Assembly (NCBI GenBank): GCA_030248195.1
Contig: JASAND010026119.1
Location: 1 to 64,000 of the forward strand
Length of the DNA: 64,000 bases
From: Trissonchulus latispiculum
Taxonomy: Eukaryota; Nematoda; Enoplea; Enoplida; Ironidae
Direction: 5' to 3'
A model generated the notes under the pieces. It searched no databases and had not been told where the DNA came from. It saw nothing but the letters and a program-made list of their open reading frames with translations. This document shows positions 26,750-61,730 of this stretch, one piece after another. The position numbers were made by a program, and so were the translations under genes. Numbering within the stretch: position 1 is the stretch's first letter; each line of letters begins with the position of its first letter.

Positions 26750-29020
26750 TCATGGGGGAGCTCGGAGAGCCCCCCATAATATGAGCCATAAAGGCACTTT
26801 GCGGATTTGGAAAAGTGCTAATTAGGCATAACTAATTAACGGGAAGGAATTAAGAGCTAATATTTACATTTTTGAAATCTCCAGGCCAAGAGCTTTCGAA
26901 TGATACCAAACTTGCCCGGAAAAAATGAACTTTGAAAAAATCGACTTTCTCTTACGGGTTTGAAAGTGGGGTTTTTTTCTCTGTATTCAGCATGATTTTT
27001 TCCAATTTTGTGTTAACTCGATTTTTCGAACGGCCCATAGGAAAAATTTTTCTATACTATTTTTTGATTATCTAGGCAATGGTACTTAGCAAGTTTATGT
27101 TTTTTTTCTAATTTCGATTTGGTTCGCTTTTTATTGATGGTCAAAAATGGGAAAAATAGCGTTTTTGGACACCTTCAAGCTGAAAAATTTCTAAGTCCGA
27201 AAATTTGAAAATAGTCTAAAAACGGGCAAAAACAGCGTTTTTCGGCCTCGGGGTGGTACCCATAGACATTAAATCGGGGTCGCTGAACACGATAAGCATA
27301 TCGCCGAAGCCGACGGATGTGACCCTCGGGCTGCATGGCGCCCGTGGTTCCTCGCCCAGGGTCAAAGTTGGGAAAAGTCCCTAAAAACGGCTATTTTTGG
27401 TCTTTTGGTGGTGCCTATATATAGTAAATCGGGGTCGCTGAACACGATGAGCATATCGCCGAAACCGACGGATGTGACCCTCGGGCTGCATGGCGCCCGT
27501 GGTTCCTCGCCCAGGGTCAAAGTTGGGAAAAGTCCCCAAAAACAGCTATTTTCGGCGTTTTGGTTGGGGGCATATACAATAAATCGACTATGCTCGTTTC
27601 AATGGGCATATTCTCGAAACCGACAGAAGTGACCACTGATCACTACGGTCTAGGTGGGCTATTGACCACTGGTCAAACCCCCTAAAACAGCGTTTTTCGG
27701 CGTTTTGGTTGGAGTCATATATAGTAAATCGACTATGCTCGTTTCAATGAGCGTATTGTCGAAACCGACGGAAGTGACCACTGGTCACTACGGTCTAGGT
27801 GGACTATTGACCACTGGTCAAACCCCCTAAAACAGCGTTTTTCAGCGTTTTGGTTGGGGGCATATATAGTAAATCGACTATGCTCGTTTCAATGGGGATA
27901 TTTTCGAAACCGACGGAAGTGACCACTGGTCTAGGTGGCCTATTGACCACTGGTCAAACCCCCTAAAACTTCGTTTTTCGGCGTTTTGGTTGGGGGCATA
28001 TATAGTAAATCGACTACGCTCGTTTCAATGGGCGTATTGCCGAAACCGACGGAAGTGACCACTGGTCACTACGGTCTAGGTGGGCTATTGACCACTGGTC
28101 AAACCCCCTAAAACAGCGTTTTTCAGCGTTTTGGTTGGGGGCATATATAGTAAATCGACTATGCTCGTTTCAATGGGCATATTTTCGAAACCGACGGAAG
28201 TGACCACTGGTCTAGGTGGCCTATTGACCACTGGTCAAACCTCCTAAAACTTCGTTTTTCGGCGTTTTGGTTGGGGGCATATATAGTAAATCGACTACGC
28301 TCGTTTCAATGGGCGTATTGTCGAAACCGACGGAAGTGACCACTGGTCACTACGGTCTAGGTGGCCTATTGACCACTGGTCAAACCCCCTTAAGCTTCGT
28401 TTTTCGGCGTTTTGGTTGTGGGCATATATAGAAAATCGACTATGCTCGTTTCAATTGGCGTATTGTCGAAACCGACGGAAGTGACCACTGGTCTAGGTGG
28501 CCTATTGACCACTGGTCAAACCCCCTAAAACTTCGTTTTTCGGCGTTTTGGTTGGGGGCATATATAGTAAATCGACTACGCTCGTTTCAATGGGCGTATT
28601 GTCGAAACCGACGGAAGTGACCACTGGTCACTACTGTCTGTGTCTAGGTGGGCTATTGACCACTGGTCAAACCCCCTAAAACAGCGTTTTGGTTGGGGCA
28701 TATATAGTAAATCGACAATGCTCGTTTCAATGGGCATATTTTCGAAACCGACGGAAGTGACCACTGGTCTAGGTGGCCTATTGACCACTGGTCAAACCCC
28801 GTGAAACTTCGTTTTTCAGCGTTTTGGTTGTGGCATATATAGTAAATCGACTACGCTCGTTTCAATGGGCGTGTTGTCGAAACCGCCGGAACCACTGGTC
28901 ACTACGGTCTAGGTGGCCTATTGACCACTGGTCAAACCCCCTGGAACAGCGTTTTTCGGCGGTTTGGTTGGGGGCATATACAATAAATCGACTGTACTCG
29001 TTTCAATGGAAAGGACATAC
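26750..29020 (+). mobile_element. Helitron/HINE-like element with satellite core (right end uncertain)
   Basis: The left end is TC followed by a hairpin ATGGGGGAGCTC-GGA-GAGCCCCCCAT (26752-26777) and then AATATG. The same layout (TC, ATAGGGG hairpin, AATATG) begins the elements at 40288, 44602 and, inverted, 32501. About 480 bp of AT-rich sequence is followed by a long tandem array (27259-28990). The right end may be near ACATACTTG at 29010-29020, but this is not certain. No protein is encoded. Confidence 0.5.
27259..28990 (+). repeat. Tandem satellite, alternating 145/136-bp units
   Basis: The landmark CATATA at the start of each unit occurs at 27571, 27716, 27861, 27997, 28142, 28278, 28423, 28559, 28699, 28834 and 28975. 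Spacings are 145, 145, 136, 145, 136, 145, 136, 140, 135 and 141. The long form carries TCACTACGG inside GACCACTGGTC..TCTAGG and the short form lacks it, so the array is a dimeric higher-order repeat of about 281 bp. Two diverged units of about 156 bp (27259, 27415) lead into it. Each unit contains the near-palindrome GACCACTGGTC, often twice. Confidence 0.9.
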
Positions 29021-29483: not shown

Positions 29484-30264
29484 CAAGAACCAAAAATGCT
29501 CCTTCGTCGCATGTAAAATACATATGAGTACTCTCAGGCAGGTTGTACAAACACGGAAACTAGCCTGTAAAATGCATATGAGTGGCGTTGAGGTTGTAAA
29601 TTAAGGAAAACAAGTTGCAACGGCTTAACATATGAGCCTGTCCTACAACGAGGCTCATATTGGCGTACGTATGTCATAATATAATTTGTCGATATTTGAC
29701 CTTCATATAAATAGCACGTAAAGCTTTTCATTACAAAATTGTCCTTCACACACCTTGTCGCTGAGACACTGTGCATACGCATTATACGGCATGCCACTCT
29801 GCGCTCTGACTCAGAGCCATGTGGGGAAAGCATTACGTATGTGAGAGTAGTGTGGCATAGTGTTCCGAGAATACAGTAGGTGTACTATAGTGCTTCCGGA
29901 AATAGTAGGTGCCACGGTGTTTCGGGAAACATCAGCTTGCATGTACAATTAAACTTGAGGTGTCGCAGTTCACTTCGATCTGTCCATTTCTTTCAAGCCA
30001 CAATGTTAACATGACGTTATGTCTATTCATTCGTTTTTTCTTTAATATGATGACCTGATGATCTTTAAGAAGGCTACTGTGACGCCAATATGAGCCTCGT
30101 TGTAGGACAGGCTCATATGTTAAGCCGTTGCAACTTGTTTTCCTTAATTTACAACCTCAACGCCACTCATATGCATTTTACAGGCTAGTTTCCGTGTTTG
30201 TACAACCTGCCTGAGAGTACTCATATGTATTTTACATGCGACGAAGGAGCATTTTTGGTTCTTG
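29484..30264. repeat. Foldback module F1 (781 bp, about 185-bp arms)
   Basis: Arms 29484-29668 and 30080-30264 are inverted and begin CAAGAACCAAAAATGCTCC. The arms contain TGAGCCTGTCCTACAACGAGG near the inner edge. Near-identical modules occur at 32902-33683 and 36477-37266. Confidence 0.88.
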
Positions 30265-30340
30265 TTTTCCATTCTTTTACATATGTATGCGCAAAAAAGA
30301 ACCAACATAATATATTTCCGAACACCATGCGCAAGCAGAT

Positions 30341-31395
30341 ACTATTTTGACCACTTTTGGAAAATTTCATATTTGACCCAAAATCGCCTAAGTCCCCACC
30401 CCACCACAGCACTCACAGCCACTTTGAGCATGCAATTCTATGATAAAAATTGCTCAGCTCACTTAGGGCTTTCATTTGGTACCAAATTTGACCACTTTTG
30501 AAACATTTCATTTTTGACCGAACAATCGCCTAAGTCCCCACCCCACCCCACACAGCACTCTACAGGCACTTTGAGCATGCAATTCTATGACAAAAGTTGC
30601 TCACCTCACTTAGGGCTTTCACTTGGTACCAAATTTGACCACTTTTGAAAAATTTCATTTTTGACCGAAAATCCCACTCCCCACCCCACCCCACCACAGC
30701 ACTCTACAGCCACTTTGAGCATGCAATTCTATGATAAAAATTGCTCAGCTCACTTAGGGCTTTCATTTGGTACCAAATTTGACCACTTTTGAAACATTTC
30801 ATTTTTGACCGACAATCGCCTAAGTCCCCACCCCACCCCACCGCAGCACTCTACAGGCACTTTGAGCATGCAATTCTATGACAAAAGTTGCTCACCTCAC
30901 TTAGGGCTTTCACTTGGTACCAAATTTGACCACTTTTGAAAAATTTCATTTTTGACCGAAAATCGCCTAAGTCCCCACCCCACCCCACCGCAGCACTCTA
31001 CAGGCACTTTGAGCATGCAATTCTATGACAAAAGTTGCTCACCTCACTTAGGGCTTTCATTTGGTACCAAATTTGACCACTTTTTAAAAATTTCATTTTT
31101 GACCGAAAATCGCCTAAGTCCCCACCCCACCCCACCGCAGCACTCTACAGGCACTTTGAGCATGCAATTCTATGACAAAAGTTGCTCACCTCACTTAGGG
31201 CTTTCATTTGGTACCAAATTTGACCACTTTTTAAAAATTTCATTTTTGACCGAAAATCGCCTAAGTCCCCACCCCACCCCACCGCAGCACTCTACAGGCA
31301 CTTTGAGCATGCAATTCTATGACAAAAGTTGCTCAGCTCACTTAGGGCTTTCATTTGATACCAAATTTGACCACTTTTGAAAAATTTCATTTTGG
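30341..31395 (+). repeat. Satellite A array, about 148-bp units
   Basis: About seven head-to-tail units. Each contains TTTGACCACTTTTGAAAAAT, then CTAAGTCCCCACCCCACCCC, GCACTTTGAGCATGCAATTC and AAAGTTGCTCACCTCACTTA. A frame is open through three units because unit lengths are near multiples of three; this is not evidence of coding. The same satellite recurs at 33850-34480, 35640-36340, 37330-37545, 41530-42050, 45880-46250 and, diverged, 57940-58690. Confidence 0.9.
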
Positions 31396-31399
31396 ACCA

Positions 31400-31830
31400 C
31401 CTGACCCCTTACCGACCTGACCCCTCTGACGGTCAAGTGGAGCCAGCCCAGCCAAATGGGTGCGTTGTACAGCAAAACGGACACCGGAAATGAGCTGGGC
31501 GCACCAGAAAACCCATATAGAGAAAGTTTTGAGAGGCCAAGTAGAGCCTAGTATGGACCTCCAGGAAACGGTCGCCGACATGACCCTCCAGACGACAAAG
31601 TGGAACCAGCCCAGCAAGATGGATGAGTCGGTCGGCAAAAAGGACACCGGATATGAGCTGGGCGCACCAGAAAACCCATATAGAGAAAGTTTTGAGAGGC
31701 CAAGTAGAGCCTAGTATGGACCTCCAGGAAACGGTTGCCGACATGACCCTCCAGACGGCAAAGTGGAACCAGCCCAGCAACTTGGGTCAGTCGGGCAGAA
31801 AAACTGATAGCGGGAATCGATTCTCCGTCC
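31400..31830 (+). repeat. Satellite B, about 185-bp units
   Basis: Two and a half units carry GAGCTGGGCGCACCAGAAAA, CCATATAGAGAAAGTTTTGA and GACCCTCCAGACG. Related units lie at 34495-34880, 35290-35620 (inverted), 40920-41520 (inverted) and 45240-45860 (inverted), always beside satellite A. Confidence 0.85.
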
Positions 31831-32661
31831 GCAAAAACCTTTGTATGCAAGATTTGAGGCTTCCAGGTCGCAAAATAAGCGAAAAAACTAAGTTCAAAGT
31901 TGGACCCAAAATTCACCAACTTTGGCAGGCCAGTACCCAAAAATTACGCTCAGGACCGGAAAATCATATAGCAATTGAACGACCCTGATATGTGTCCTAT
32001 TCAGCCATATAGGCAGTATTGCCCCATATATAGCCCAGTCTGACTTATTACGGCGCCTTTGAAGCATACTTTTTGGCCATTTTAACGTTTTGGCCGACTT
32101 TGGCCCCCCGCCAAAAATTTTTTCCGGCTCTGGGAGGCATAAAAACTAGCCTATCGGCTTATTTTTGTTGCGTACTCCAAGAATATATATGGTTTTCATA
32201 GGCAAAAATTTTTCTATCTGTTGTTATTAAAGCTACAAAACCCCCTTACCAGACGTCAAAGCGGAGAACCGGAAAAAAAAACATCACTCTCGTAAGCGAT
32301 TTTTGGCGCAACTTTTTAACGGAAAGTGGTACGGGGATGAAACTTCGCACACATACTAAACTCGACACGTACAATTTTTTGCGCACATAATCTGCGCAGG
32401 ATCTGCGCAGGAATCTGCGCAGCTTCTGCGCAGCCTTGTTTTACACGGTCATTCGACCATTTTCACTCATATTATAGGGGTCGCTACCGCGACCCCTATG
32501 ATATAAATGTGCAAGTCAATCGTTTTTCTCAACTTTAACTTGGCCTTTTTGTGTTAATTTGGCGTGGCCTAAACAAATTTGAAAAGGGGTTGGATCCTCC
32601 CCCAACTGGACACGTCCCCGACCCTCCCCAAAAACTTTCGCTCCCCTGGCTCTATATATGT

Positions 32662-32901: not shown

Positions 32902-35900
32902 CAAGAACAAAAAGTGCTCCTTCGTCGCATGTAAAATACATACGAGTCTTCGTAGGCAGGTTGTACATAAGCAAAAACTTTCCTGTAAAATACATATGAG
33001 TTCCGTAGGGAGGTTGTAAATTAAGGAAAACAAGTTGCAACCGCTTAACATGAGCCTGTCCTACAACGAGGCTCATATTGGCGTATGTCATAATACAAAT
33101 GATTTGCAGATATATATATTCTACTTTTATATTAATACATACTGCATAAAGCTTTTCATTACAGATATGTCCTTCACATAGCTTGTTGATCAGTCACTAT
33201 AGTGTGCATATGCTCAATACGGTACGCCATGAGGCGCTCTGACTCAGAGCCAAGTGGGAAAGCATTCTCCGTGTGAAAGTGTTTCGAGAATGCATTAGGT
33301 GTACCGTGTACCACAGCGTATCGCGAAATATTAGGTGTGCCATAGTATTTCAAGAAACATCAGGTTGCATGTATATACAGTTCAGCTTGAGCAGTCGTAG
33401 TTCACATCAGTCCATTTCTTCTGGGCCACAACGTCTATTCATTTTTCCGTAATGTCGATGAAGCTGAGGTTCTTTAATGAGGCTTTAATGTGGAATGCAC
33501 TGTGACGCCAATATGAGCCTCGTTGTAGGACAGGCTCATGTTAAGCGGTTGCAACTTGTTTTCCTTAATTTACAACCTCCCTACGGAACTCATATGTATT
33601 TTACAGGCTAGTTTTTGCTTACAACCTGCCTACGAAGACTCCTATGTATTTTACATGCGACGAAGGAGCACTTTTTGTTCTTGTTTTCTATTATTTTATA
33701 TATGTATGCTCCTGAAGGTATGTATAGATAGATATCTTTCAACAGTAGCAAGCAAGCCAACCACAGCTCGTACCGCTTACACTCTACAGCCACTTTGGGT
33801 ACGCAGCTCTATGACAAAAGTTGCTCAGCTCGCTTAGGGCTTTCATTTGATATTATATACATATACCAAATTGACCACTAAAATCATTTAAGTCCCCACT
33901 CCACCCCACCAGAGCACTCAACAGCCACTTTGAGCATGGAGTTCTATGACAAAAGTTGCTCCGCTCGCGTAGGGCTTTCACTTGATACCAAATTTTACCA
34001 CTTTTGAAAAATTTTAGTTTTGACCGAAAATCGCCTAAGTCCACCACCCACCCCACCACAGCACTCCACAGTCACTTTGAGCATGCAGTTCTATGACAAA
34101 AGTTGGTCAGCTCGCGTAGAGCTTTCATTTGATACCAAATTTGACCACTTTTGAAAAATTTTAGTTTTGACCCAAAATCGCCTAAGTCCCCACCCCACCC
34201 CACCACAGCACTCTACAGCCACTTTGAGCATGCAGTTCTATGACAAAAGTTGCTCAGCTCGCTTAGGGCTTTCATTTGATACCAAATTTGACCACTTTTG
34301 AAAAATTTTAGTTTTGACCCAAAATCGCCTAAGTCCCCTCCCCACCCCACCCCACCACAGCACTCTACAGCCACTTTGAGCATGCAGTTCTATGACAAAA
34401 GTTGCTCAGCTCGCTCAGGGCTTTCATTTGATACCAAATTTGACCATTTTTGAAAATTTTCATTTTTGACCACATCACCTCCCACCCCCACCCCTCCAGA
34501 TGGCAAAGTGGTACCAGCACAGCTTTGAGCATAGGTGGGTCCGACGGCAAAAGAGATGCTCAGGAATGAGCGTGGGCGCACCAGAATACCCTATAGACAA
34601 TTTTTTGAGAGGCTATGTCATCTATTGGTGTTCCACGGAAGTCGGTACCGAACGGACCCTCCAGACGGCAAAGTGGAACCAGCACAGCAAGATGGGTGAG
34701 TCAGACGGCAAAACGGACACCGGGAATGAGCTGGGCGCACCAGAAAACCCCTATAGACAAAGTTTGGAGAGGCTAAGTAAAGCCTACTATGGACCTCCGG
34801 GAAGCGGTTACCGACTTGACCCTCCAGACGGCTAAGTGGAACCAGCCCAGCAACTTGGGTCAGTCGGGCAGCAAACTTGATAGCGGGAATCGATTCTCCG
34901 TCCAAGAAACCTTTGTATGCAAAATTTGAGCCATCCATGTAGCAAAATTAAGCGAAAATTAAAAAGCGAAAAAATTAAGTTCAAAGTTCGACTTTCAAAG
35001 TTCAAAATTCACCAACTTTGACCGGCCAGTACCGAAAAATTACGCACAGAGACGGAAAATCACATAGCATTTGAACGACTCCGATATGTGTACTGTTTAA
35101 CCATATAGTCAGTATTGCCCCATATATAGCCCAGTCTGACTTATTAAGGCGCCTTTGAAGCATACTTTTTGGCCATTTTAGCGTTTTGGCCGAATTTGGC
35201 CCCCAGCCAAAAAATTTTTTTTCCGGCCTGGGAGGCATAAAAACTAGCTTATTTTCTTATTTTTGATTTGTACTACAAGAATATAGCATGGAGTCAGTCG
35301 GTAACCGCTTCCCAGAGAGTCCATAGTAGGCTTTACTTAGCCTCTCCAAACTTTGTCTATAAGGGTTTTCTGGTGCGCCCAGCTCATTCCCGGTGTCCGT
35401 TTTGCCGTCTGACTCACCCATCTTGCTGTGCTGGTTCCACTTTACCGTCTGGAGGGTCCGGTCGGTACCGACTTCCGGGAACACCATATAGAACTGTACA
35501 TAGCCTCTCAAAAAATTGTCTATAGGGGTTTTCTGGTGCGCCCAGCTCATTCCTGGCATCTCTTTTGCCGTCGGACCCACCTATCTTGCTGTGCTGGTTC
35601 CGCTTTGCCATCTGGAGGGTAAGTTAAGTGGGAGGTCATGTGATCAAAAATGAAAATTTTCGAAAGTGGTCAAATTTGGTATCAAATGAAAGCCCTAAGC
35701 GAGCTGAGCAACTTTTGTCATAGAACTGCATGCTCTAAGTGGCTGTAGAGTGCTGTGGTGGGGTGGGGTGGGGAGTGGGGACTTGGGCAATTTTCGGTCA
35801 AAAATGAAATTTTTCAAAAGTGGTCAAATTTGATACCAAGTGAAAGCCCTAAGCGAGCTGAGCAACTTTTGTCATAGAACTGCATGCTCAAAGTGACTGT

Positions 35901-37266
35901 GGAGTGCTGTGGTGGGGTGGGGTGGGGACTTATGCGATTTTGGGTCAAAACTAAAATTTTTCAAAAGTGGTCAAATTTGGTATCAAATGAAAGCCCTACG
36001 CGAGCTGACCAACTTTTGTCATAGAACTGCATGCTCAAAGTGGCTGTAGAGTGCTGTGGTGGGGTGGGGTGGGGGGATTTAGGCGATTTTGGGTCAAACC
36101 TAAAATTTTTCAAAAGTGGTCAAATTTGGTAAAGTGGTCAAATTTGGTACCAAATGAAAGCCATAAGCGAGCTGAGCAACCTTTGTCATAGAACTGCATG
36201 CTCAAAGTGGCTGTAGAGTGCTGTGGCGGTGTGGGGTGGGGACTTAGGCGATTTTGGGTCAAAACTAAAATTTTCCAAAAGTGGTCAAATTTGGTATATA
36301 TATATATGTAATATCAAATGAAAGCCCTAAGCGAGCTGAGCAACTTTTGTCATAGAGCTGCGTACCCAAAGCGGCTGTAGAGTGTAAGCGGTACGAGCTG
36401 TGGTTGGCTTGCTTGCTACTGCTGAAAGATATCTATACATACCTTCAGGAGCATACATATATAAAATAATACAAAACAAGAACAAAAAGTGCTCCTTCGT
36501 CGCATGTAAAATACATATGAGTCTTCGTAGGCAGGTTGTACATAAGCAAAAACTTTCCTGTAAAATACATATGAGTTCCGTAGGGAGGTTGTAAATTAAG
36601 GAAAACAAGTTGCAACCGCTTAACATGAGCCTGTCCTACAACGAGGCTCATATTGGCGTCACAGCGCATTCCACATTAAGGCCTCATTAAAGAACCTCAG
36701 CTTCATCCACATTACGGAAAAAATGAATAGACGTTGTGGCCCAGAAGAAATGGACTGAAGTGAACTACGACTGCTCAAGCTGAACTGTATATACATGCAA
36801 CCTGATGTTTCCTGAAATACTATGGCACACCTAATATTTCGCGATACGCTGTGGTACACGGTACACCTAATGCATTCTCGAAACACGTTCACACGGAGAA
36901 TGCGTTGCCACTTGGCTCTGAGTCAGAGCGCCTCATGGCGTACCGTATTGAGCATATGCACACTATAATGACTGATCAACAAGCTATGTGAAGGACAATT
37001 TGTAATGAAAAGCTTTATGCAGTATGTATTAATATAAAAGTAAAATATATATATATATCTGCAAATCATTTGTATTATGACATACGCCAATATGAGCCTC
37101 GTTGTAGGACAGGCTCATGTTAAGCGGTTGCAACTTGTTTTCCTTAATTTACAACCTCCCTACGGAACTCATATGTCTTTTACAGGAAAGTTTTTGCTTA
37201 TGTACAACCTGCCTACGAAGACTCATATGTATTTTACATGCGACGAAGGAGCACTTTTTGTTCTTG
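32902..37266. mobile_element. Inverted dimer of Helitron/HINE-like elements, 4.4-kb palindrome
   Basis: Order: foldback F2 (32902-33683), satellite A plus (33850-34480), satellite B plus (34495-34880), central spacer (about 34880-35285), satellite B minus, satellite A minus (35640-36340), foldback F3 (36477-37266). Both outer edges are CAAGAACAAAAAGTGCTCC or its complement. The hairpin end seen in single copies is absent, so two partial elements are joined through their left regions. Arms are very similar and differ mainly by unit number. Confidence 0.8.
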
Positions 37267-38090: not shown

Positions 38091-39089
38091 AAATTAACAC
38101 AAAAGAGCAAAGCTTAATGTAGATAGTAATCATTGACCTGTACGACTATACAGCTGTGACATACAGTATCATTGTGCACAGTGATCGCATATATATATGG
38201 ATCGCCTTGTTATGCCCGACTGACCTGATTGTGGGACTCATCAGGGGCTTACAATCAGGTTATTTTTCTTTGAAATTGACCACCCGTTTTCAATAACTAA
38301 ATGTGGTTTCGTCCCCTGGCGATCAACTCCAGCCACACGTGATGTTAAGCACACATATACACCTTTCAAATAATTAATGCCCACATATAAAACAGTAAAT
38401 GTCCCCGAACGTTAAAAACGACGGGTATTCATAAGGTTCCGTCATCCATTATGAACGACAGCATTCTTAAGTATCCTTCAATTGAAGGATTTTCATAAGA
38501 AAACATATAGATATACGTACTCATAAGTCACTGCCGTAAAAATGTAAATATTTAATGTGTAACATAAAAACAACTAATAAGATGCGCATCCGCACCGGCC
38601 CAGGACAATCTGGTGGGAGCAATCCTCAACCGTTCCAGATTGTCAAGGACAAAGCAAATTAACACAAAAGAGCAAAGCTTAATGTAGATAGTAACCATTG
38701 ACCTGTACGACTATACAGCTGTGATATACAGTATCATTGTGCACAGTGATCGCATATATGGATCTCCTTGTTATGCCCGACTGACTTGTTTGTGGGACTC
38801 ATCAGGGGCTTACAATCAGGTTATTTTTCTTTGAAATTGACCACCCGTTTTCAATAAATAAATGTCGTTTCGTCCCCTGGCGATCAACTCCAGCCACACG
38901 TGAGGTTAAGCACACATATACACCTTACAAAGAATTAATGCCCACATATAAAACAGTAAATGTCCCCGAACGTAAAAAACGACGGGTATTCATAAGGTTC
39001 CGTCATCCATTATGAACGACAGCATTCATAAGTATCCTTCAATTGAAGGATTTTCATAAGAAAACATATAGATATACGTACTCATAAGT
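38091..39089. mobile_element. TRIM/retrozyme-like direct-repeat pair
   Basis: Two direct repeats of about 436 bp (38091-38528, 38656-39089), highly similar, flank a 127-bp unique spacer (monomer period 565 bp). Size and layout fit a terminal-repeat retrotransposon in miniature or a metazoan retrozyme. The repeats do not begin TG or end CA and I found no clear primer-binding site. On the minus strand each repeat holds CTGATGAGTCCC and GGGGACGAAAC, which match the two hammerhead core strands. Confidence 0.6.
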
Positions 39090-39546
39090 TTTTAGTTTTT
39101 TTAGCTAAAAATGCTCCTTTTTCGATGTACAGTACACTAACGTATAGCCATGGGGGGGGGAAACCCACATTTTCGGATTTTGGCTGGAACTTTTTTATTA
39201 CATATATATATACGTATATAAGGGCTAGATGAGAACTTTATATACCATCGTACTTGGCGTATATACCTAGATCTATCTTTTAAGCCCATTTGCACTTCTC
39301 TAGGTTGTACCGTTAGGCCGGTATAATGCAAAAAGTAGCGTTGGAAAAAACCCAATGGGGGAAAAACCCAAATGGGGTGAAAAACCCAAACCTCACATGT
39401 CTCAAAAATTGTCGTAGCGCTATTCTGACACTTTCGGTGTCAACTCTTTTTAGATAGTACGTATATTTAAACCAAAAAACCCGATCTAGGTACCTTTTTT
39501 GAGATTTCATGTGCTATTGAAAATGCAGCATCAAACGGGCAGGTTT

Positions 39547-39728
39547 CCATAGGTGTGTTGGGTGGGGGTGACCCCCCCACGAAAATGACAAATTTCGGCG
39601 ACCCCCCCCCCAGATTTTCAGATTTTTGCTACCCCAGATTTTCGGCCAAAAATGGCATAAAATCGAAAATTTAGGGGGACACCCTCCGTCGGACCCCCCC
39701 CCCCAGATTTTTGCCCAGCCACACCTAT
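39547..39728. mobile_element. hAT-type MITE, CATAGGTGTG ends
   Basis: Flanked by the perfect 8-bp duplication GCAGGTTT (39539-39546, 39729-39736); copy A at about 55990 shows the empty site (CCAGGTTTCATAAAG). Ends are CCATAGGTGTG and CACACCTAT. The interior has C runs. Copies of this terminus also appear near 37835, 37950, 42680, 43020, 43445 and 48305. Confidence 0.85.
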
Positions 39729-40287
39729 GCAGGTTTCATAAAGTTTAACATATAAACATAGGACAATTTTTGAAAAATGTTAAAAACGATGTAATTTGAT
39801 AAAACTTGCTAGTCTATCGTGTAGAGAATGGTTTTTTACCTCCAATTGGCTGTTATGTAAAATCCACAATTGGACCTGACCTGTCCTGGGTCCTCCAATA
39901 CCGACATGGCACTTTCAGGATTTTTGGCGACTAGCTAGCCAGGGAAGCAAAATTATCCAAATCTGACACCATAGGATGATGTAGCCGTAGCGTCCTCGAT
40001 AGTACCGTGCTATAGTGTCGAATTGTTTCCCTGTTTGGTTGTTAAAAAAATTTTCAAAAAATGGGTGGGGTTTTCCCCCCAAAGTGGGTTTTTTCCCCGC
40101 CACATTTGGCAATGTGCCAGACCAACGGTTCATCGGATCGACCTAATTCTGGCTGTGTGCATAGAGGAAGACTTGCTATCATTGCAGATATTTGTGAAAC
40201 TTTTCTAACCCAACCCAGTCAAAAGTTACATCGGTCCAAACTTTTGCAATATTTTAGCGTGGTTGGACCAAAAAGTAGGTGTCATTT

Positions 40288-42154
40288 TCATAGGGGTCGC
40301 GGCAGCGACCCCTATAATATGTGTCAAAAGTCCCTGGAGACACCGTAAAATAAGCTGCGCAGAGGCTGCGCAAAATCCTGCGCAGATCCTGCGCAGATTT
40401 CATGCGCAAATTGTAGAGCACATCGAGTTTAGTATGTGTGCGAAGTTTCAGCCCCGTATCACTTTCCGTTAAAAAGTTGTGCCCCGGACCGGTTATGGCG
40501 GCGATGTTTTTTTTCCGGTTTCTCCTATTTAATGGTCGTATTGTCCTGATTTTCCGCCTCTTTCACGTAATCTGCAGCGGAGGCCGGACCTAAAGGGGTA
40601 TAGGGTCTGGTAGTACCCCATGCGCCATTTAAGAATCGCTACTTTTTTGCGCCGCAGGCGCGCCACAGCGCCGCAGCGGCGCCGCAAAGTCGGCTCAGAG
40701 CGAAAAGTGACCATTATTGTGGTCGCTGCGCAGCTCGAACGTTAAGAGCTGGAGCCGATTTCTTTTTATATTCAGAAACTACATATATTGAACTAACTAA
40801 ATAGCTAAGTCTCGTTTCTCTATCACTTCCCATGCGACCACAGTGGCCGGTCAAAAATGGTGAAAATTCGAAAAATGAAAAATCGAAATTTCTCGCTGTG
40901 TATTCAACTTAGAAAGCTCAATTCTTTCATACAAAGGTTTTCTGGCACGGCGAATTGATTCCCGTAAGCAGTTTTGCCGTCGGACCCACCCATATTTCTG
41001 GGCTGGTTCCACTTTGCTGTCGGGAGGGTCAAGTCGGTACCGACTTCCAAGAACACCATATAGGACTGAACAACTTTCCCCATAACTTGCTGTGTCGGAT
41101 TTATAATACTTTCTTTCTCAACCGGATTAAACGACAGACATAGGCCCAACACACATATTATCCCCTTTTGTGCGGAGCATTTTTGTTACTTGTCAAAATG
41201 TCATATAATGAGCAGGAGTGGACCAAATAACTTGATCTTTGCCTGCGTAGGTAAGAAAGAGTCGCGCTTTCTGCTGCTCATTTCCGGTGTCCGTTTTGCC
41301 GTCCGACCCACCCATTTTGCTGGGCTGGTCCCACTTTGCTGTCGGGAGGGTCAAGTCGGTACCGACTTCCAAGAACACCATATAGGACTGTGCATAGCCT
41401 CTCAAAACTTTGTCCATAGGGGTTTTCTGGTGCGCCCAGCTCATTTCCGGAGTCCGTTTTGCCGTCCGACCCACCCATTTTACTGGACTGGTTCCACTTT
41501 GTCGTTTGAAGGGTAAATCGGGTAGGGGGTCAAGTGGTCAAAAATAAGATTTTTCAAAAGTGGTCAAATTTGGTACCAAATGAAAGCCCGCATCGAACTG
41601 AGCAACTTTTGTCATAGAAGTGCGTACCTAAGTGGCTGTAGAGGGCTGTGGTGGGGACTTAGGCGATTTTGGGTCAAAAATTAAAATTTTCAAAAGTGGT
41701 CAAATTTGGTACCAAATGAAAGCCCGCATCGAACTGAGCAACTTTTGTCATAGAAGTGCGTACCTAAAGTGGCTGTAGAGGGCTGTGGTGGGGTGGGGTG
41801 GGGACTTAGGCGATTTTGGGTCAAAAATTAAAATTTTCAAAAGTGGTCAAATTTGGTACCAAATGAAAGCCCGCATCGAACTGAGCAACTTTTGTCATAG
41901 AAGTGCGTACCTAAAGTGGCTGTAGAGGCCTGTGGTGGGGTGGGGTGGGGACTTAGTCGATTTTGGGTCAAAAATTAAAATTTTCAAAAGTGGTCAAATT
42001 TCGAGTCAAATGAAGGCCCGCATCGAACTGAACAACTTTCGCCATAACTTGCTGTGTCGGATTTATAATACTTTCTTTCTCAACCGGATTAAACGACAGA
42101 CATAGGCCCAACACACATATTATCCCCTTTTGTGCGGAGCATTTTTGTTACTTG
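40288..42154 (+). mobile_element. Helitron/HINE-like element, copy 2, with empty site in window
   Basis: Starts TC plus hairpin ATAGGGGTCGC-GGCA-GCGACCCCTAT, AATATG; then the TGCGCAG region, satellite B and A (minus orientation), and ends GGAGCATTTTTGTTACTTG. The flanks GTCATTT and TCAAAATGTC join to exactly the uninterrupted sequence GTCATTTTCAAAATGTC at about 56458-56474, so no target duplication is needed and insertion is between two T. Inside, about 960 bp including the right end and 86 bp of right flank is tandemly duplicated (first end at 41192, second at 42154). No transposase gene is present. Confidence 0.75.
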
Positions 42155-42330
42155 TCAAAATGTCATATAATGAGCAGGAGTGGACCAAATAACTTGATCT
42201 TTGCCTGCGTAGGTAAGAAAGAGTCGCGCTTTCTGCTGCTATGATTTGGAGCTCATAGCTCCAACCCTTGGTCCAGGATGCGGGTGGGTTCCCCCCCCCC
42301 AAAAGGGGGTGTGTTTTCCCCACATGGCTA

Positions 42331-43507: not shown

Positions 43508-44209
43508 ATGGTCATTATAGACACTTCCTTCATGTCAAAGTCTAACAGTACGGATGGAGTGATCGTTAGTTATTTTGACTCCTGTTTAAGGAAGGCTGAC
43601 GTTCAGTTACTTGACGATTGCTGTTGGCTAAACGACCAGTTAATATCCTTCGTGTTGGAATACCTGGAACATGTTACTCTGAAAGAGCTGGATCTTTGCA
43701 ATAGCTCTGTTGCCTTTGTTGGACCTGAAGTAGTGCATTTGATTAAGTGTTCCTCAACGGAAATTTCCCAGTCTATTTTGTCAACATTAGATTTAAAATC
43801 CAAAGATTTAATATTTTTCGTCATTAACAATAATTTGACTTCTGACGTAGGGGGTACTCACTGGAGCTTGCTTTGTTTTTGCCGAAATCCGTTTTCATTG
43901 TTTGTCCATTATGATTCATTAAGACTATCCTCTAATATAAATGATGCTAAAAGAGTTGCTGCTCTAGTTGGCTCCTTTATTTTGGACGACTCTGTTAGCT
44001 CGAGATCAATTAAATCCGCTGATTGCAGTGAACAGTCAAATGGCTACGACTGTGGGATACATGTGATCATGAATATTGAAGCCATTCTAAGACACTTTGC
44101 TTTGCATAAAGATTTGCCATTATCAGTCTCTGTTGGTCTTGAAACTCCTGCTGATAAACGAAAATCACTGCGGTGTTTAATAAACGAACTTGCTACTAGT
44201 CGTGTGTAA
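43508..44209 (+). CDS. SENP8: SENP8/NEDP1-like deneddylase (C48 cysteine protease)
   Basis: Single-exon ORF of 233 aa; human SENP8 has 212 aa and a single coding exon. The enzyme removes NEDD8 from cullins and other proteins and processes the NEDD8 precursor. ULP1-fold landmarks: SYFDSCLRKADVQLLDDCCW and LNDQLISFVLEYLE (residues 21-54), GGTHWSLL with catalytic His118, VHYDSL with Asp136, SEQSNGYDCGIHVI with Gln176 (oxyanion hole) and Cys182. All catalytic residues are present. ATG 43508 gives eight extra residues before a second Met (43532) that aligns better with the usual start; either could be used. The GTGAGT after the stop may mark a 3' UTR intron. SHQ1 starts about 290 bp downstream on the same strand. 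Confidence 0.93.
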   Translation: MVIIDTSFMSKSNSTDGVIVSYFDSCLRKADVQLLDDCCWLNDQLISFVLEYLEHVTLKELDLCNSSVAFVGPEVVHLIKCSSTEISQSILSTLDLKSKDLIFFVINNNLTSDVGGTHWSLLCFCRNPFSLFVHYDSLRLSSNINDAKRVAALVGSFILDDSVSSRSIKSADCSEQSNGYDCGIHVIMNIEAILRHFALHKDLPLSVSVGLETPADKRKSLRCLINELATSRV

Positions 44210-44500: not shown

Positions 44501-47500
44501 ATGATGCTGACGCCATCGTTCAAGTTAGACCAGGACGATGACTTCCTGTTGGTGTCTATAAAAGCACCGTTTTCTAAGGTTAGTGATTGCTGCGATGTAT
44601 ATCATAGGGGTCGCGGCAGCGACCCCTATAATATGTGTGAAAAGTGGCTGGAGACAGTGTAAAATAAGCTGCGCAGAAGCTGCGCAAAATCCTGCGCAGA
44701 TCCTGCGCAGATTTCATGCGCAAATTGTAGAGCACATCGAGTTTAGTATGTCTGTGAAGTTTCAGCCCCGTATCACTTACCGTTTAAAAAGTTGCGCCCC
44801 GGACCGGTTATGGCGGCGATGTTTTTTTTCCGGTTTCTCCTATTTGATGGTTGTATTGTACATGATATGCACGTTCTCCGCTTTCCACGCGGATCCGCAG
44901 CGGTGGTCAATACTCAAGGCGATGGGGTCTAGTAGCGTACCCTGAAGGACCTTAAGAATCACAACTTTTTTTTTAACCAAAGATTGCTCCTACAGCACGC
45001 AGTGGGCGCCGCAAACTCGGTCGACAGCGAAAAGTGACCATTTTTGCGTGTCGTCGCTCAGTGGTCAAGACATGAGAGCTGAGCCGATTCTCTTTATATT
45101 CAGAAATTACATATATTGAACCAACTAACGGTCCAGGATGCGTTTACTCTATCAATTTCCTAGCGACCACAGTGGCCTGTCAAAAATGGCGAAAAATTCG
45201 AAAAATGAAAAATCGAAATTTCTAAATCTATTTAACTTTGAAAGCTCAAATCTTCCACACGGTTTTCTGGCACCGAGAATCTATTCCCACAGTCCGTTTT
45301 ACCGTCGGACCCACCCATCTTGACAGACTGGTTCCACTTTGTCGCCAGGAGGGTCAAGTCTGAAACGGTCTCCGGAGGTCCAAGTAGGTCTTTACCTGGC
45401 CTCTCACCCTGTTGGTCAGGTGTTTCCTGGTGCGCCCAGGTCACTCCTTGGTGTCCTTTTTGCCGTCAGACTCATCCATCTTGCTGTGCTGGTTCCACTT
45501 TGCTGTCTGGAGGGTCTAGTGTCGGCAACCGCTTCCTGGAGGTCCATACTAGAGCTCTACTTCTGGCGTCTCCGTACCCTGTCCATAGGGGTTTTCCTGG
45601 TGCGCCCAGCTCATCTCCGGTGTATCCGTTTTGCTGTCCGACGCACCTGTTTTGCTGGGCTGGTTCCACTTTGCCGTCGGGAGGGTCAAGTCGGAAACCG
45701 CTTCCGGAGATCCATGCAGGCTTTACCTGGCCTCCGAAAACTTTGTCTATAGGGTTTTCTGGTGCGCCCAGCTCGATTCTCTGTATCCGTTTTGCCGTCC
45801 GACGTACCTATTTTGCTGTGCTAGTTCCACTTTGCCGTCGTGGAGGGTCGAGTCGGGTGGAGGGGATCAAGTGGTCGAAACTGAAAGTTTGGAAAAGTGA
45901 CAAATTTTGTTTCAAACGAAAGCTCTAAGTGAGCTGAGCAAGTTTTGTCATAGAACTGCGTACCCAGTGCGCTGGTAGAGCGTTGTGGTGGGTTGGAGTG
46001 GGGACTTAGGCTATTTTGGGTCAAAAATAAAATTTTTCAAAAGTGGTCAAATTTGGTATCAAATGAAAGCTCTAAGTGAGCTGAGCAACTTTTGTCATAG
46101 AACTGCGTACCCAAAGTGGCTGTAGAGTGCTGTGGTGGGGTGGGGTGGGGACTTAAACGATTTTCGGTCAAAAATGAAAGTTTTCAAAAGTGGTCAAATT
46201 TGGTATCAAATGAAAGCCCTAAGTGAACTGAGCAACTTTTGACATGGAACCATCCACCAATATTTGCTGTGCCAAATAACGTCACGTGCCTATGAAACTT
46301 TTGTCTTTACTTCTTCAATCGGAATTTAAGGATATACCTATTTATATTTATTATATATTTAAAGGATATTTGAAGGATATATATACGATACAGCCAACAC
46401 ACACACATATTATCCTCTTTTGTGCGGAGCATTTTTGTTACTTGTATTTAATATTAGTACGACCACTACCACATTATGTTAAATCCTTTCGGATCCTGAC
46501 TCCCTGTGAGGAGTTGAGGTAGCGCGATCCAGCTGGGTTTTCTTTAGTGGAGGGGGGGCGCCCCTCACGTTTGGGTTCTCCCTCCCACTCGTTCCCCCCA
46601 CTTTTTTTGGGCTTCCCTCCCACTCACTTTAAGGTATCCAAAAATGCCAAATTTTAAGGATTTTTGATGAAAATTTTCAAAAGTTTTCTCGATTTCTCAA
46701 AAAACTCGATTTTAGAGCACTTTCGAGCTTAGTTGTAGCAGCTGGGTTTATTTTACTGGGGGGGGGGGCGGGGGGGGGCGCGCCCCCCCGCGCTGGGTCC
46801 CCACTCACTATAGGGTGCCCAGAAAATGCCAAATTTTAAGGAGTTTTGGTCAAAATTTTCAAAAATTTTCCGGCTACGCCGGAAATTTTTGATGAAAATT
46901 CGCCTTTTTTGGTGCTAAAAATTGATTTTTGAGCACTTTTAAACATAGTCATAGCAGTGTATGTGGAAAACAGGCTATTTATACAGCATTTTTAGCATTT
47001 TTGGCTCATTTTATTTGCCCCCCCCCCACTCTCCCCCCCCCCCCCCCCACTTATTTTTGCCTAATGTAAACCCAGAGCAGTATACGAAGGTGAATACGCA
47101 ATGTTTACGGTATTTTTGCCAATTTTATCCCCCCAATGGAGGGCTTCCCCCCCGCCTTTATTGGCCTAGAGAAAACCACCAGCCTAGTATAGAGATCGGG
47201 AAAAAAACCAACCCGCAAGTGGCGGGGAGAAAACCACCCCTCGTTTGGGCGATGAGGATGAGCTGGCGGGTTCAAATTTTGCATGCGGAAGTTGGTAGGG
47301 CCCATCCCACCTACCACACCAAATTTGAGCAAAATCGGACCACTTTTGAACATTGTATGACATTTTGAAAATTTTGGCATTTTCGACCCCCCAAAAATTC
47401 AAAATTTGCCTATTTTTGAAGGCCTGTAGAAACTTTTCCAAGTAGTTAGGTGATAACTTTTGATAGTTTCTATGAGAACAACATGTGCTCTTTCCAAAAA

Positions 47501-53500: not shown

Positions 53501-56500
53501 TGGGCTTGAGGGGCCCATGTGAATGAGTGCCATTTGTTGTCCTCCGGTCGGGATCTCGAGGGAGGGGTCCTGCCGTACCACCAGCGGCAAGGTACTCTCC
53601 TGGTACAGAAGTTTACATATCAACAGAAGCTATGAATCTTAAGATTGTTGATACGGTATGCATTGACTATGTAATGTGTTTATAATACCTCGCTGAATAA
53701 TTATGATGTTTGTTTTTAAGGTAACTGATGCTGACATTGCCATTACTGGGAATGAGTTCTTTTTCAGTGCAAAGCCATATTTCCTCAGGTATGGTAATAG
53801 GAGGCACCACTACAGCAACCTATGTATGAGATGAGTCCCAGCCCCCGGGCTTATTCTAGTGGGTGGGCGAGGCGTAGACGACCTCCCAAAATTATTTCCT
53901 CCTTTCCCAGAAATCGCCCCCCTCCACAAACCAGAAGGTGCCCCGTTTGGTACCAAATTTTGCCCTGAAATATTCGCTCAGAAGGCCAAGTCGGCGTCAC
54001 TGGAAATATTTTTATTCAATCTTTGCCTTTTTCACCATTAAGTCTGGACATTTTTGCAGTGAATACTAGAAAACTAACGCGAAGCAAATTTTTAGGAAAA
54101 AGTTTGCCCCACCCCAATAAAAACCAACTTTCCCAATTTTCGTAATTTCGCCAAAATTGTCGATATTCTCGAAATTTTCTTTCCATGCATGCGCGTATCC
54201 AAAAGGGGAGAGAGGGTTTGGGAAATTGAAACCTCTTTTAGGTTGACCAAAGGATGTTGTAGTGCAAAACGAGTAAAATTTCGAAAACTTTTGATTAACA
54301 CTTTTTCATTATGGTTCTCACTTTTTATTCTACGCAAGGTTTTTATTTAGGCCATAGCTAAGGCCATGGCCTAAATTTTAGAGCCGACGGTCTAAACAAT
54401 TGTGACTTTTTTGACAAAAACTCGTTAAATTTTATTGGTCTTTTAGTGAAAACAGTTGTATACAGGCGCGTAGCCAGGGGGGGGGGGGAAGGGGGGGGGC
54501 ATCCCCCCCCCGAAATTGTGTTGCCCCCCAGGAATTTTTTCCTGCCATGTGTAAAACGCCCATTTTTCAAAAAATTTTCGAGCCTTCGGCGCGAAATAGG
54601 TGTGTTGCACCGTTATAATACGTGTTTCGCGCTTAAAAATGAGTACCAATTACTCTATTTGGTGTACTTTGACCACCTTCTGCGTCATTTGGGTACATGA
54701 GCTGCGCCTTAAAAGTTATTGTAATTTCAACGAATGCTCTGTAAAAATTCCACGGAGGTCATGAAATAGGAGGCCATTTGGACTAAAGGTCGGCAACGAA
54801 ATAAAAAACCCTGATTCCACAGGGCCCTGTTTGGGAAGAAACATTTCATATTGGCTTGTATGCGCCATTTGTACGTTATGATTACCGGACGGTGTTAAGG
54901 CTGTGGTTACTCTTGGCAATTTTGTGTAGCCACATCGACCGTTTTATATTATAGGGTGACCGTGTCAGCGTTTTATAGGATTTTGGATTTTTGCTTGCTA
55001 ACTTAACTTTTCGATTGGAGCTCTCAGAAAAGAAAGTAAATATGATAGAAAGTTTTGATTTATCAGGTTTTGTTAAGGGACGAGGGGTAAGCTGATCACG
55101 CAATCCTCCCTCGTCGTGCTCTATATTATTTAGTTGACATGCGTATGTTTTATTTGTTTCTGATTATTTTGTTTGTTCTCTTTGATTTGAATAGTCTACT
55201 ATTAATAACAATTTAAATACGCTAACCGCATTAATTTTGCAGTTGTTACCTACGATGGTATATTACTTTATATATTGAGTATATACACACCTTTTGTCAT
55301 TAAATATACAGAATGTTTTGTTCGTATTGTTTTAAATTTGTGCCCTCAAAATATTTTGCTTAACGCACGCATGACTTGCCGGCAGGAAATCACATTAGTT
55401 TTAAAAGCGTTTCTTTTCAGCAAAAAGGTTGGTTTAGAATATTTTTGTCAGGCTTTAGACTAGTGATGGGTGAGGGAGAAAGGTTTTCTATTTTCCAATG
55501 AATAATACGAATGAAAAATATTCGTCGCGTTATTTTGACGATTTTTACAAAATATACTGTTTTATGAACTTTTGCTGCGAGTTTGCACTATTTACAGCCT
55601 TTTTCGAGGTGCATAAGTAGAGAATATATAGCCATGGGGGGAAAAACCCACATTTTCGGATTTTGGCTGGAACTTTTTTTATTATAAGGGTTATCTGAGA
55701 ACTTTATATACCATCGTACGTGGCGTACTTAGAACTTTCTTTTAAGCCTATTTGCACTTCTCTAAGTTGTACCGTTAGAGCGGTATAATGCAAAAAGTAG
55801 CGGGGGAAAAACCCAATGGGGGAAAAACCCAAATGGGGGAAAATAAACCCACCCCTCACAGGTCTTAAAAATTGTTCTATCGCAATTCTGACACATCCAA
55901 TGTAAAATTCAACCCTTTTTTAGTTAGCATGAACCAAAAAACCCGATCTAAGTAGCTTTTTTGAGATCTCATTTGCCGTTGAAAATGCTGCATCAACTGG
56001 CCAGGTTTCATAAAGTATAACACATAAACATAGGGCAATTTTTGAAAAATGCTAAAAAATGATGTAATTTGATAAAACTTATTATTCTATCGTGTAGAGA
56101 ATGGTTTTTTACGTAGAATTGGCTGTTAAAATCCACAATTGTACCTGTATTGGGTTCTCCAGCTGCGAAATGGCACTTTTATGGTTTTTAGCCTTTAGCT
56201 AGCCAGATAAGCAAAATTGTCCGAATCTGACCGCATAGGATGACGCAGCATGCTCGATAGTACCGTGCTATAGTCTCTAATTGTTTCCGTGTGCCAGACT
56301 AACGGTACAGCGGATCGGTCTAATTTTGGTTGTGTGCAAAGAGGAAGAGTTGCCATCATTGCAGATATTTGCAAAACTTTTCTAGCCCAACCCAGTCAAA
56401 AGTTTCTTCGGTCCAAACTTTTGGTAAATTTTTGGATGGTTGAACCAAAAAGTAGTTGTCATTTTCAAAATGTCATAAAATAAGCAGGAGTGAACCAAAT

Positions 56501-59500
56501 GACTTGATCTTTGCGGACATAGGTTAGAAAGAGTCGCGCTTCCTGCTGCTATGTTTTGGAGCTCATATCTCCAACCCATGACCCAGGAGGCGGGTGGGTT
56601 TCCCCCCCCCCAAAGGGGGTGGGTTTTTTTTTACCCCATGGCTATAATGTTAAACCTGACGCAATTGTATTTCCATTTTTTCGAAACATCGGAGAAAATG
56701 AAAAAATCGGGAAATGTTCTGAAAGTGAATTTGTGAAATTAGAGTATTAGGGAACTATCAAGTCGAGTGTTTTCTGAGGCAATAAGGCGATTTCACTGAA
56801 CATGGGCTAATTTTGGAAGTTAATTTTTTGCGGTTGAATGTGTAGTGTGTATATATACGATTGAGTATGACCTCAGCTAGAGTTAATAATGCCATGAATA
56901 ACAGTGGTGTGCTAAACCTAATACTGTTAAAACGTCTAGATTTGTTTATATTGTCCAAGGACAGTGGCGCACATAGGAAATTTTTTCAGGGGGGGGCGGA
57001 CCTCAAAAAATTTGGGGGGGTCTGGGGCAAAATTTTTGAAAACCAGGTTTAAAATTCAAAAATAAGCGTAAATTAAACAAAAATCGAATAAATTTTGCGC
57101 CGACCAAGGGCGCACCCGGGATTTAGAAGAGGGGAGTTGAGTCTCAGAAAGTTTTTACATTCGTCAGGTGCACAAGATTTCGAAATAGCCGTTCATCTAC
57201 CGGGGGTCTGGGGGGCAGAGCCCCCCAGAAGTTGAAGAAATTTTTTGTTTTTGCAATAAAATCGGTCTTCGAAGCTTTAATTCTTTTCATACTGAAGAAT
57301 TGAGAAAATTGTTTAAAATTCTTGACATTTTTAGGCAAAAATGGTAATTTTCTCCGAAAAGTCGGATGCATTCCAAGCTTTTTCTTCATAAATGCATTAA
57401 ATATGCCGTTGAAAAGTGGAAAATTCGCGCCGAAGGCGCGAAATTTTTTGGTTTTTTGTCCTTTTTCCTCTTTCTCTCCTTAATTTTTCCTACCTTCGAA
57501 TCGCGACGGGGAGGGGGCGGCCGCCCCCCCCGCCCCCCCTAAGTGCGCCCCTGTCCAAGGATGTCTTTTATTTTGTTATTCTTATTTTATTTAGACTGTT
57601 TTTGAAGCAGAACCTTATTGAGGATGGCCGAGAATCAGCCGAATACTGCTGTGAATCCAGTAGGTCTAGAGCTAGCTTGTTTTTTGTTGATTCCACTTCG
57701 TATCTGTAGTTGTGAGCGAATTAGGGGGAACCTATCCATGAGGCTCGGGGGGCACTCTGATGGATGTGGGCCCCAACCGTGTCGCAAGTCCTAATTTAGC
57801 CTATTGTACAGAAAGATCCGCAACTGATAGAGCTTTCTTATTTGGCATGTGAGGTGGGCCAAAGAAGGACTACAACGTAGGCTATAGTAGGTTTCGCCCG
57901 GACCCCTGTGGCGCCTTGGCCAGGGGTCCGGATCGGTCAAGTCAGAACTCAATATAAGTTTGGTATCAAATGACAGCTGTTGGTGAAGCGAATAATTTTT
58001 GTTATTGGAGGACCCCTCTAAAGTGGACCCAGCGGCCTGCGGCATCCTGACTAGGGTCCGGGCTGGCCCAGAATCGAAATTTCCAGAAGTGGTCAAGTTT
58101 GGTATCAAATGAAAGCGGTTGGTGAAGCGAACAATTTTTGTCATTGGGAGGACCCCTCTAAAGTGGACCCAGCGGCCTGTAGCACCCTGACTAGGGTCCG
58201 GGCCTGCCCAAAATGGCCCAAAATAGAAATTTCCAGAAGTGGTCAGGTTCGGTATTACATGAAAGCCCTTGGTGAGGCGAACAATTTTTTCATTGAAGGA
58301 CCCCTCTAAAGTGTCTCCAACGGCCTGTAGCACCTGGCCAGGGGTCTGAACCGGTCAAAATTGGTCAAAATTCAAAATTTCCAAAAGTGATCTCGTTTGA
58401 TATCACATGGTGAGGTGAACAATTTTTTATTGGAGGACCCCTGAAGACCCCCGCCTGGACAGGGGTCCTAATTTGTCAAAAGTCAAAATTTCCAAGAGTT
58501 GTCAAATTTGGTTTTAAATGAAAGAAATTCTTAAGTGAGCTGAGCAACTTTTGTCATAGAACTGCATATCCAAGGTGACTGTAGAGCGGTGTGGTGGGTT
58601 GAATCAGGCGACTTTGTGTCGAAAATAAAATTTTTCAAAATTTGGTCAAATTTTATATCATATGAAATAACTTAAAGAGACTAACAAGTTTTGTCATTAG
58701 TGTGTTCTGCCGTGTCAAAGTCAAAGCTGTTATCACGCTTATTCAGCATATTCGGATTTCGATATTGTTGCAGATCCGTTTGCTTCGTTCTTATCTTGTC
58801 GAGAAATGATAAAAGCAAGCAATAATATAAATGAAATGCTTTTGATAGCACATATTTTAACACAAGCACAGTCGACCACGAATTGTGCTTAATGCGAATA
58901 TGGATACGTATTCTTGCTCCTGCTGCTAGGGTTTGTTTGTTAACATGAAAGGTTTGCGTACTTAGGGCGGTTGTTTATGTCACTCCATTTTCCAACATAT
59001 TTATTTCAGAGATGGGGTAGGTCAAAGAGTAGCCAGCTTAGGGTCACCCCTAGTCACCTCAGAATTGGCACTTAAAATGTGATAATGGGCGTTATGCTTA
59101 CGTTAGCAGATGCTAGCAGAATATATTGCACATCATTACCTATTTCTTCTCGAAAGACGAAAAGTTCGCGCGAATAGGGCAGAAGGAGGGAATTCCCTAT
59201 TCAGCGGCAAAGCTGGTTTCTGTTATTTTAGTCGCCGAGTAGATTCCCTATTCGGCGACAAAGCTGGTTTCTATTATTTTAGTCGCCGAGTAGATTCCCT
59301 ATTCGGCGACAAAGCTGGTTTCTATTATTTTAGTCGCCGAAGCGCACAAAGCTGGTTTCGGCCATTTTAGTCGCTGATAAACGGCATTTTTCCCCTTCAG
59401 CAGAACCTCAATTGTAAACATGCATCGTGTATTTTATATCTAAGTATTTCCCTATTCAACCAAGTTGGTCGCTCGTCGAGCACATTTCCCCCTTGTTGTA

Positions 59501-61693: not shown

Positions 61694-61730
61694 CGAATTA
61701 GTTAATTCCCAGTCTTTTTGTTTAATTAAA

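Follow-up and report, generated by a model that had tools for sequence, protein, structure and literature searches.

The insertion c2, 1867 bp of DNA in a contig of the nematode Trissonchulus latispiculum, is probably a nonautonomous rolling-circle element of the Helitron superfamily. Its family is very abundant and successful, and among relatives of the Helitrons it has an unusual build. It is a real and precise insertion into an older repeat, and the empty site survives in a relative of that repeat within the window (the whole stretch of 64,000 nucleotides analyzed here). Its coordinates and those of its parts and relatives are given in Table 1.

An exact insertion and its empty site

Element c2 starts TCATAGGGG and finishes GTTACTTG. 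Joined, its flanks read GTCATTTTCAAAATGTC, identical to the unbroken relative, with zero duplication and zero deletion, so that the insertion and the pre-insertion site proposed in the original prediction both stand. The joined flanks were also crossed by BLAST alignments at four loci elsewhere in the genome (L024, L032, L037, and L050), at the level of alignment rather than base by base. Its boundary can be shifted by 2 nt, as TC begins the element and the right flank alike. We chose the register TC...CTTG because TC precedes the hairpin in 30/30 genomic heads, whereas c2 alone among the 21 complete copies has TC after its 3' end. These 30 heads were retrieved with a query containing TC; only c1, c3, and a second head at locus L006, which came from a TC-free pattern, are independent of that query, and TC was present in all three. 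By eye, the same host repeat also holds a 182-bp hAT-like insertion (window 39540-39737, CATAGGTGTG...CACACCTATG), which is flanked by an 8-bp duplication, CAGGTTTC, and is missing from the relative at 55629.

Table 1. Features of the element family in the window (positions in nucleotides)
Feature	Position	Strand	Remarks
Head d1, related subfamily	26750..26783	+	Same layout, different stem sequence (by eye)
c1, longer copy of sister subfamily, 3018 bp	29484..32501	-	3' boundary set by motif; no empty site
Foldback at c1 3' end, arms ~187 bp	29484..30264	.	CTTG-type 3' motif on both tips
Host repeat split by c2	39145..42330	.	Ends TAGCCATG; TA-flanked
Element c2, TC...CTTG, nonautonomous, 1867 bp	40288..42154	+	Exact empty site; 20 other two-ended copies
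5' terminal hairpin, arms 11 bp, loop 4 nt, perfect	40290..40315	+	Preceded by TC
Left subterminal inverted repeat ATAATATGTGT	40314..40324	+	2-nt overlap with hairpin
~163-bp satellite units	40936..41527	+	Broken by internal 3'-end duplicate
Internal duplicate of 3' end with 86 bp of flanking host repeat	41065..41278	+	99.5% to 42027-42240
Array of 147-bp satellite units, 2.8 copies	41634..42046	+
Right subterminal inverted repeat ACACATATTAT	42113..42123	+	31 nt from 3' end
3' terminal motif GGAGCATTTTTGTTACTTG, then T	42136..42154	+	c2 ends ACTTG at 42154
c3, second copy, 1843 bp	44602..46444	+	Head match
Unbroken relative of host repeat	55629..56644	.	Empty site for c2

Termini and interior of c2

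The hairpin of c2 has the arms ATAGGGGTCGC and GCGACCCCTAT. The hairpin pattern, with up to three mismatches allowed, had three matches in the window compared to a mean of 0 in 100 shuffles, and the first 133 nt of c2 folded with a z score of -6.3. From element nucleotide 27, just inside the hairpin, runs the left copy of a subterminal inverted repeat that is 11 bp long in c2 and 12 bp in c3, where a G is added (ATAATATGTGT(G)); repeats of these lengths arose in 4/2000 and 1/2000 shuffles, respectively. The repeat of c1 is shorter, at 8 bp (as long in 47/2000 shuffles), and stops 38 nt short of the 3' end. We considered whether this repeat covaries between c1 on the one hand and c2 and c3 on the other, but found no firm support, because a swap control that paired the head of c1 with the tail of either c2 or c3 likewise yielded 8 bp. 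At the 3' ends of c2 and c3, no hairpin beyond those of shuffled sequences was found (folding z scores of +0.55 and +0.94); by eye, a small stem, ATGTA-TTT-TACAT, lies 27 nt from the end in the c1 subfamily. The TC and the literature on Helitron2 suggest that the hairpin end is the 5' end, and we infer the labels 5' and 3' on that footing.

The interior of c2 contains satellite units, and the internal arrays, the terminal hairpin, and the absence of a target duplication at c2 were all confirmed in the window. The 3' end is present twice, owing to the tandem copy formed by 41065-41278 and 42027-42240, and positions 40971-41068 and 41293-41390 are 96% identical. We read 41065-41278 as a probable later tandem duplication inside c2; in the 19 complete copies fetched from the genome, only one GTTACTT-type end was listed downstream of each head. 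Rolling-circle read-through was considered as the source of the second 3' end and rejected, as ordinary tandem duplication explains the duplicate. A Pfam profile scan of ten frames in or overlapping the window copies found none above cut-off (the best reached 14.8 bits against a cut-off of 25), and the window was without any Rfam family at gathering score.

Relatives and other features in the window

The left end of c2 is 95% identical to that of c3 over 258 bp and 81% identical to that of c1 over 245 bp. The final ~780 bp of c1 form a foldback, and three foldbacks of this type occur in the window, each adjoining arrays of 147-bp satellite units. Head d1 keeps the layout of TC, 11-bp stem, and AATATG, with one bulged base in the stem (by eye), and is followed by 145/155-bp satellites at 27227-29009. 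None of c1, c3, d1, and the doubled 3' end of c2 had been part of the original prediction.

The window holds several further repeats and genes. At 32902-37266, a palindrome of >4 kb is built from two foldbacks that enclose head-to-head satellite arrays, with a further array beyond (by eye). A single open frame for an Ulp1/SENP8-like C48 peptidase (43532-44206, plus strand) lies between two element copies. A Penelope-like retroelement (61202-63924, minus strand), which may resemble Naiad elements, has a GIY-YIG endonuclease frame (PF01541) N-terminal to its reverse-transcriptase frames, and the identical frame order recurs in several metagenome relatives. By eye, 50840-53629 (minus strand) contains degraded frames like those of non-LTR retroelements, with a 2A-like DIERNPGP stretch.

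Abundance and copies across the genome

Searches covered the window's own assembly (733.8 Mb in 21,732 contigs). A 5'-head pattern for both stem types had 6,009 genomic matches (2,930 and 3,079 on the two strands), and its reversed control had none. The copies studied were sampled with the 273-bp head of c2, which gave 1,550 first-pass candidates; all of the 40 that were scored came to 100% after rounding, and the studied copies are therefore biased toward TC-bearing heads closest to c2. Nineteen of 20 fetched copies, together with c2 and c3, form a set of 21 two-ended copies that span 810 to 2605 bp; the remaining fetched copy (L039) was without a 3' end in the fetched stretch. In ungapped comparison with c2 over the 273-bp head, 18 of 20 copies showed one difference, L032 showed none, and c3 showed 67. 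The 3' end is CTTG in 20 of the 21 copies and CTTA in the other, as located by a motif search for ends in CTTG with one mismatch allowed. One of 30 heads directly follows a 3' end (loci L012 and L041, which are the same place), and this arrangement, ACTTG|TCATAGGGG, is the one expected of a circle junction or of rolling-circle copying in tandem.

Outside the genome, two scans of viral contigs with the head pattern gave 0 matches. A lone match among prokaryote species genomes, where by our rough estimate ~1 to 2 would be expected by chance, was rejected as a relative: it lies between two frames of a Nitrospinota MAG, which has nothing else in common with the window (E < 1).

Target preference and junctions

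Of the 21 two-ended copies, 19 have A before TC, c2 alone has T, and one has G; the base following the 3' end is T in all 21, with A next in 18. Of the 30 heads, 26 have A before TC, three have T, and one has G; TA precedes TC in 26/30 and TT in 3/30, c2 included. From these counts, the family therefore inserts mostly at TA|TA, with TT as a minority site. Insertion between T and T, which the original prediction had noted at c2, thus holds for few copies (TT before TC in 3/30 heads, T after the 3' end in 21/21).

Five empty sites could be read, and no duplication of constant size, an outcome that would have spoken against the original prediction, was seen across them. The site of c2 is exact, those of L040 and L032 are consistent with no change, and those of L035 and L033 carry extra TA. 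Copy L040 sits in a foldback repeat known from the window (36919-37156); its joined flanks are of equal length with one mismatch at the junction, and a 6-nt difference in a TA run lies further right of the junction. Compared with L050, L032 fits no change, with the left side poorly aligned. The L035 site shows 4 extra nt (TATA), on a side that is ambiguous, and L033, compared with L003, shows ~14 extra nt of TA (by eye) and is the copy that ends CTTA. The flanks of L037 were too diverged for an empty-site reading, and no clean site was found for the joined flanks of L046. Tandem repeat units of ~561 bp occur both at window 38193-39053 and at L035, where one unit has been struck by a copy of the element.

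The TC/CTTG boundary thus fits three of the five empty sites, and two carry extra TA at the junction, so that the second outcome counting against the original prediction, termini reaching beyond TC and CTTG, is partly borne out. It is possible, and we entertain it as a tentative alternative, that a (TA)n tail is made or carried at insertion, mainly on the CTTG side, in which case the boundary drawn in the original prediction is too short in many copies. On average the TA run after the 3' end measures 10.7 nt and the one before TC 3.9 nt; the former is the longer in 15 of the 21 copies and the shorter in 4. Copies L033 and L035 exceed their empty sites by TA. Against a tail, c2 gains none, L040 and L032 fit none, and insertion into a pre-existing TA run with later slippage gives the same figures. 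The extra TA may thus be acquired or brought along at the CTTG end, or existing TA runs may be targeted and slip afterward.

RepHel candidates as partner

The original prediction suggested a search for a Helitron replication-helicase (RepHel) protein with matching ends; RepHel frames do occur in the genome, but the stretches read showed no ends that match. The Helitron_like_N profile (PF14214) had 147 genomic matches, many in open frames of >1,300 amino acids (aa). All eight RepHel frames scanned contained PF14214, and six of the eight matched the PIF1 helicase, four of the six above cut-off, in stretches that are partial. By our reading of the comparisons, the frames form four or five groups. 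At L072 (G000 C17744), the frame that comes after a 1763-aa RepHel frame has endonuclease matches below cut-off (26.2 and 21.5 bits versus cut-offs of 27.4 and 24.5; E = 7.8e-6 and 2.2e-4), and this gene order is that of Helentrons. Dozens of RepHel places score the same as L072, or nearly so, of which only L072 was read; the clustering of scores hints at a young Helentron family.

Neither element end was found in 20 RepHel stretches of 3.1 to 3.6 kb. No such head occurs in the ~770 bp upstream of the RepHel frame at L072 (a 7.9-kb stretch) or in 5.8 kb upstream of the RepHel stretch at L074 and L073, where 2.4 kb in between was unread. Satellite units of 150 bp, relatives of the element's 147-bp units, occur at two loci of one RepHel group. 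At L069 these units abut a truncated RepHel frame, and on contig C7445 they lie 1.7 to 2.9 kb ahead of a 387-aa frame and 6.7 to 7.9 kb ahead of the RepHel match.

Alternatively, the element might be a HINE/DINE-1 element in the opposite orientation, with the hairpin end as 3', CAAGTAAC as 5', and movement by the Helentrons of the genome. We regard this as somewhat unlikely. The one-ended hairpin, the subterminal inverted repeat inside it, the central tandem repeats, and the lack of a target duplication all match HINE traits (PMC4067079, PMC7492417), and the genome does have a RepHel frame with an endonuclease-matching frame behind it (L072; 26.2 bits at best, below cut-off). Most copies, in opposition to this, target TA|T and not TT; the inverted repeats lie 26 and 31 nt from the ends, compared to 2 to 4 and 38 to 60 nt in mite HINEs; and the hairpin lies 2 nt from the end, compared to 8 to 35 nt. 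The original interpretation is partly supported: the element has a Helitron-superfamily appearance and no recognizable coding domain, and it parts from the HINE/DINE-1 type in target and in repeat spacing.

Favored mechanism

We favor a rolling-circle element driven in trans because c2 has no recognizable coding domain, a duplication-free site, a TC start, an A|T target, and a terminal hairpin, and because inner inverted repeats and one head-to-tail junction, ACTTG|TCATAGGGG, accompany them. The ends, the copies, the c2 empty site, the lack of recognizable coding domains in the scanned frames, and the many open RepHel frames in the genome are direct observations, and on them we build a proposed scheme, in which the protein at work, the passage through a single strand, the part played by the hairpin, and the assignment of the 5' end are inferred. 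A RepHel protein encoded elsewhere in the genome would nick the TC end and the CTTG end, and a single strand would be peeled off, copied, and then joined into a TA|TA target. Staggered cuts would not be made at the target, which would leave no target duplication. Recognition and stop signals may be provided by the TC-end hairpin and the short inner inverted repeats, and the satellite units may be passive cargo that expands and contracts. Four points weigh against the favored reading: RepHel frames with matching ends were not found, which is the main gap; two of the five empty sites are unclean; c2 and c3 have no 3' hairpin; and the inverted repeat of c1 is only 8 bp.

It is also conceivable, if quite unlikely, that the family is a separate rolling-circle group, with its main hairpin at the TC end, a hairpin-free CTTG end that gains a variable (TA)n tail on joining, and a sister subfamily (c1) whose 3' end, a ~780-bp foldback, bears the 3' signal on each tip. 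Highly improbable is a DDE-type element, cut-and-paste or otherwise, that duplicates 2 bp (TA) of its target: TA does precede TC in 26/30 heads and follow the 3' end in 18/21 copies, and L035 gains TATA, but c2 has TT before it, TC after it, and an exact empty site, L040 and L032 fit a gain of zero length while L033 gains ~14 nt, so that no constant size emerges, and the inverted repeats stop short of the ends.

On the favored, trans-driven rolling-circle reading, the ~6,000 places with the exact head pattern, the near-identical copies, and the many open RepHel frames in the same genome make this family a natural test bed for the terminal signals that a Helitron-like protein needs, for the formation of head-to-tail copies, and for the spread of satellites by rolling-circle elements.

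Comparison with known systems

The combination of features described here was not found in our search of the openly available literature. A hairpin at the TC end, which the original prediction had thought unusual, has precedents in Helitron2 (PMC3627910) and in the FoHelis of Fusarium (PMC5148889). Helitron2 elements have a 5' T or TC, a hairpin 0 to 2 nt from the 5' end, and usually no target duplication (Bao and Jurka 2013, PMC3627910). The element resembles them in a hairpin within 0 to 2 nt of a T/TC 5' end (most heads having been found with a TC-holding query) and in an inverted repeat ~30 nt from the 3' end. It differs in that its left inverted repeat comes after the hairpin, at nucleotide 27, and not 0 to 2 nt from the 5' end, its right repeat lies 31 nt from the 3' end compared to 20 to 30 nt as described for Helitron2, c2 and c3 have no 3' hairpin, and the target is mostly TA|T instead of TTTT|T/C. 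FoHeli3-5 of Fusarium oxysporum share with the element a 5' hairpin, the lack of a 3' hairpin, and an asymmetric inverted repeat; in contrast, they start TGCCT and end CTCCTGT, and satellite cargo goes unmentioned in the accessible text (PMC5148889).

HINE/DINE-1 elements (PMC4067079) and Cg_HINE (PMC7492417) likewise have subterminal inverted repeats, a palindrome at one end, and central tandem repeats. Like them, the element makes no target duplication, exactly so at c2 and consistently at L040 and L032, with extra TA at L035 and L033. Unlike them, it rarely inserts at TT (A before the end in 19/21 copies; TT in 3/30 heads), and its palindrome is placed differently; the repeats of mite HINEs are 12 to 15 bp long at the spacings given above, compared to 11 to 12 bp here. 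With Helitron1 (PMC5148889, PMC4067079) the element shares the 5' TC and A|T insertion (19/21 copies), but its 3' end is CTTG and not CTRR, and in place of a hairpin 10 to 12 nt before the 3' end it has one at the opposite end. Replitrons make target duplications of 2 to 8 bp (PMC10741241), whereas c2 has none. We do not file the element as Helitron2, HINE, or Helitron1 because it departs from them in the place of the inverted repeats, in the 3' hairpin or palindrome, in the target, and in the CTRR end. The best reading is that it works like Helitron2 but departs from the defining features examined of Helitron1, Helitron2, and HINE alike.
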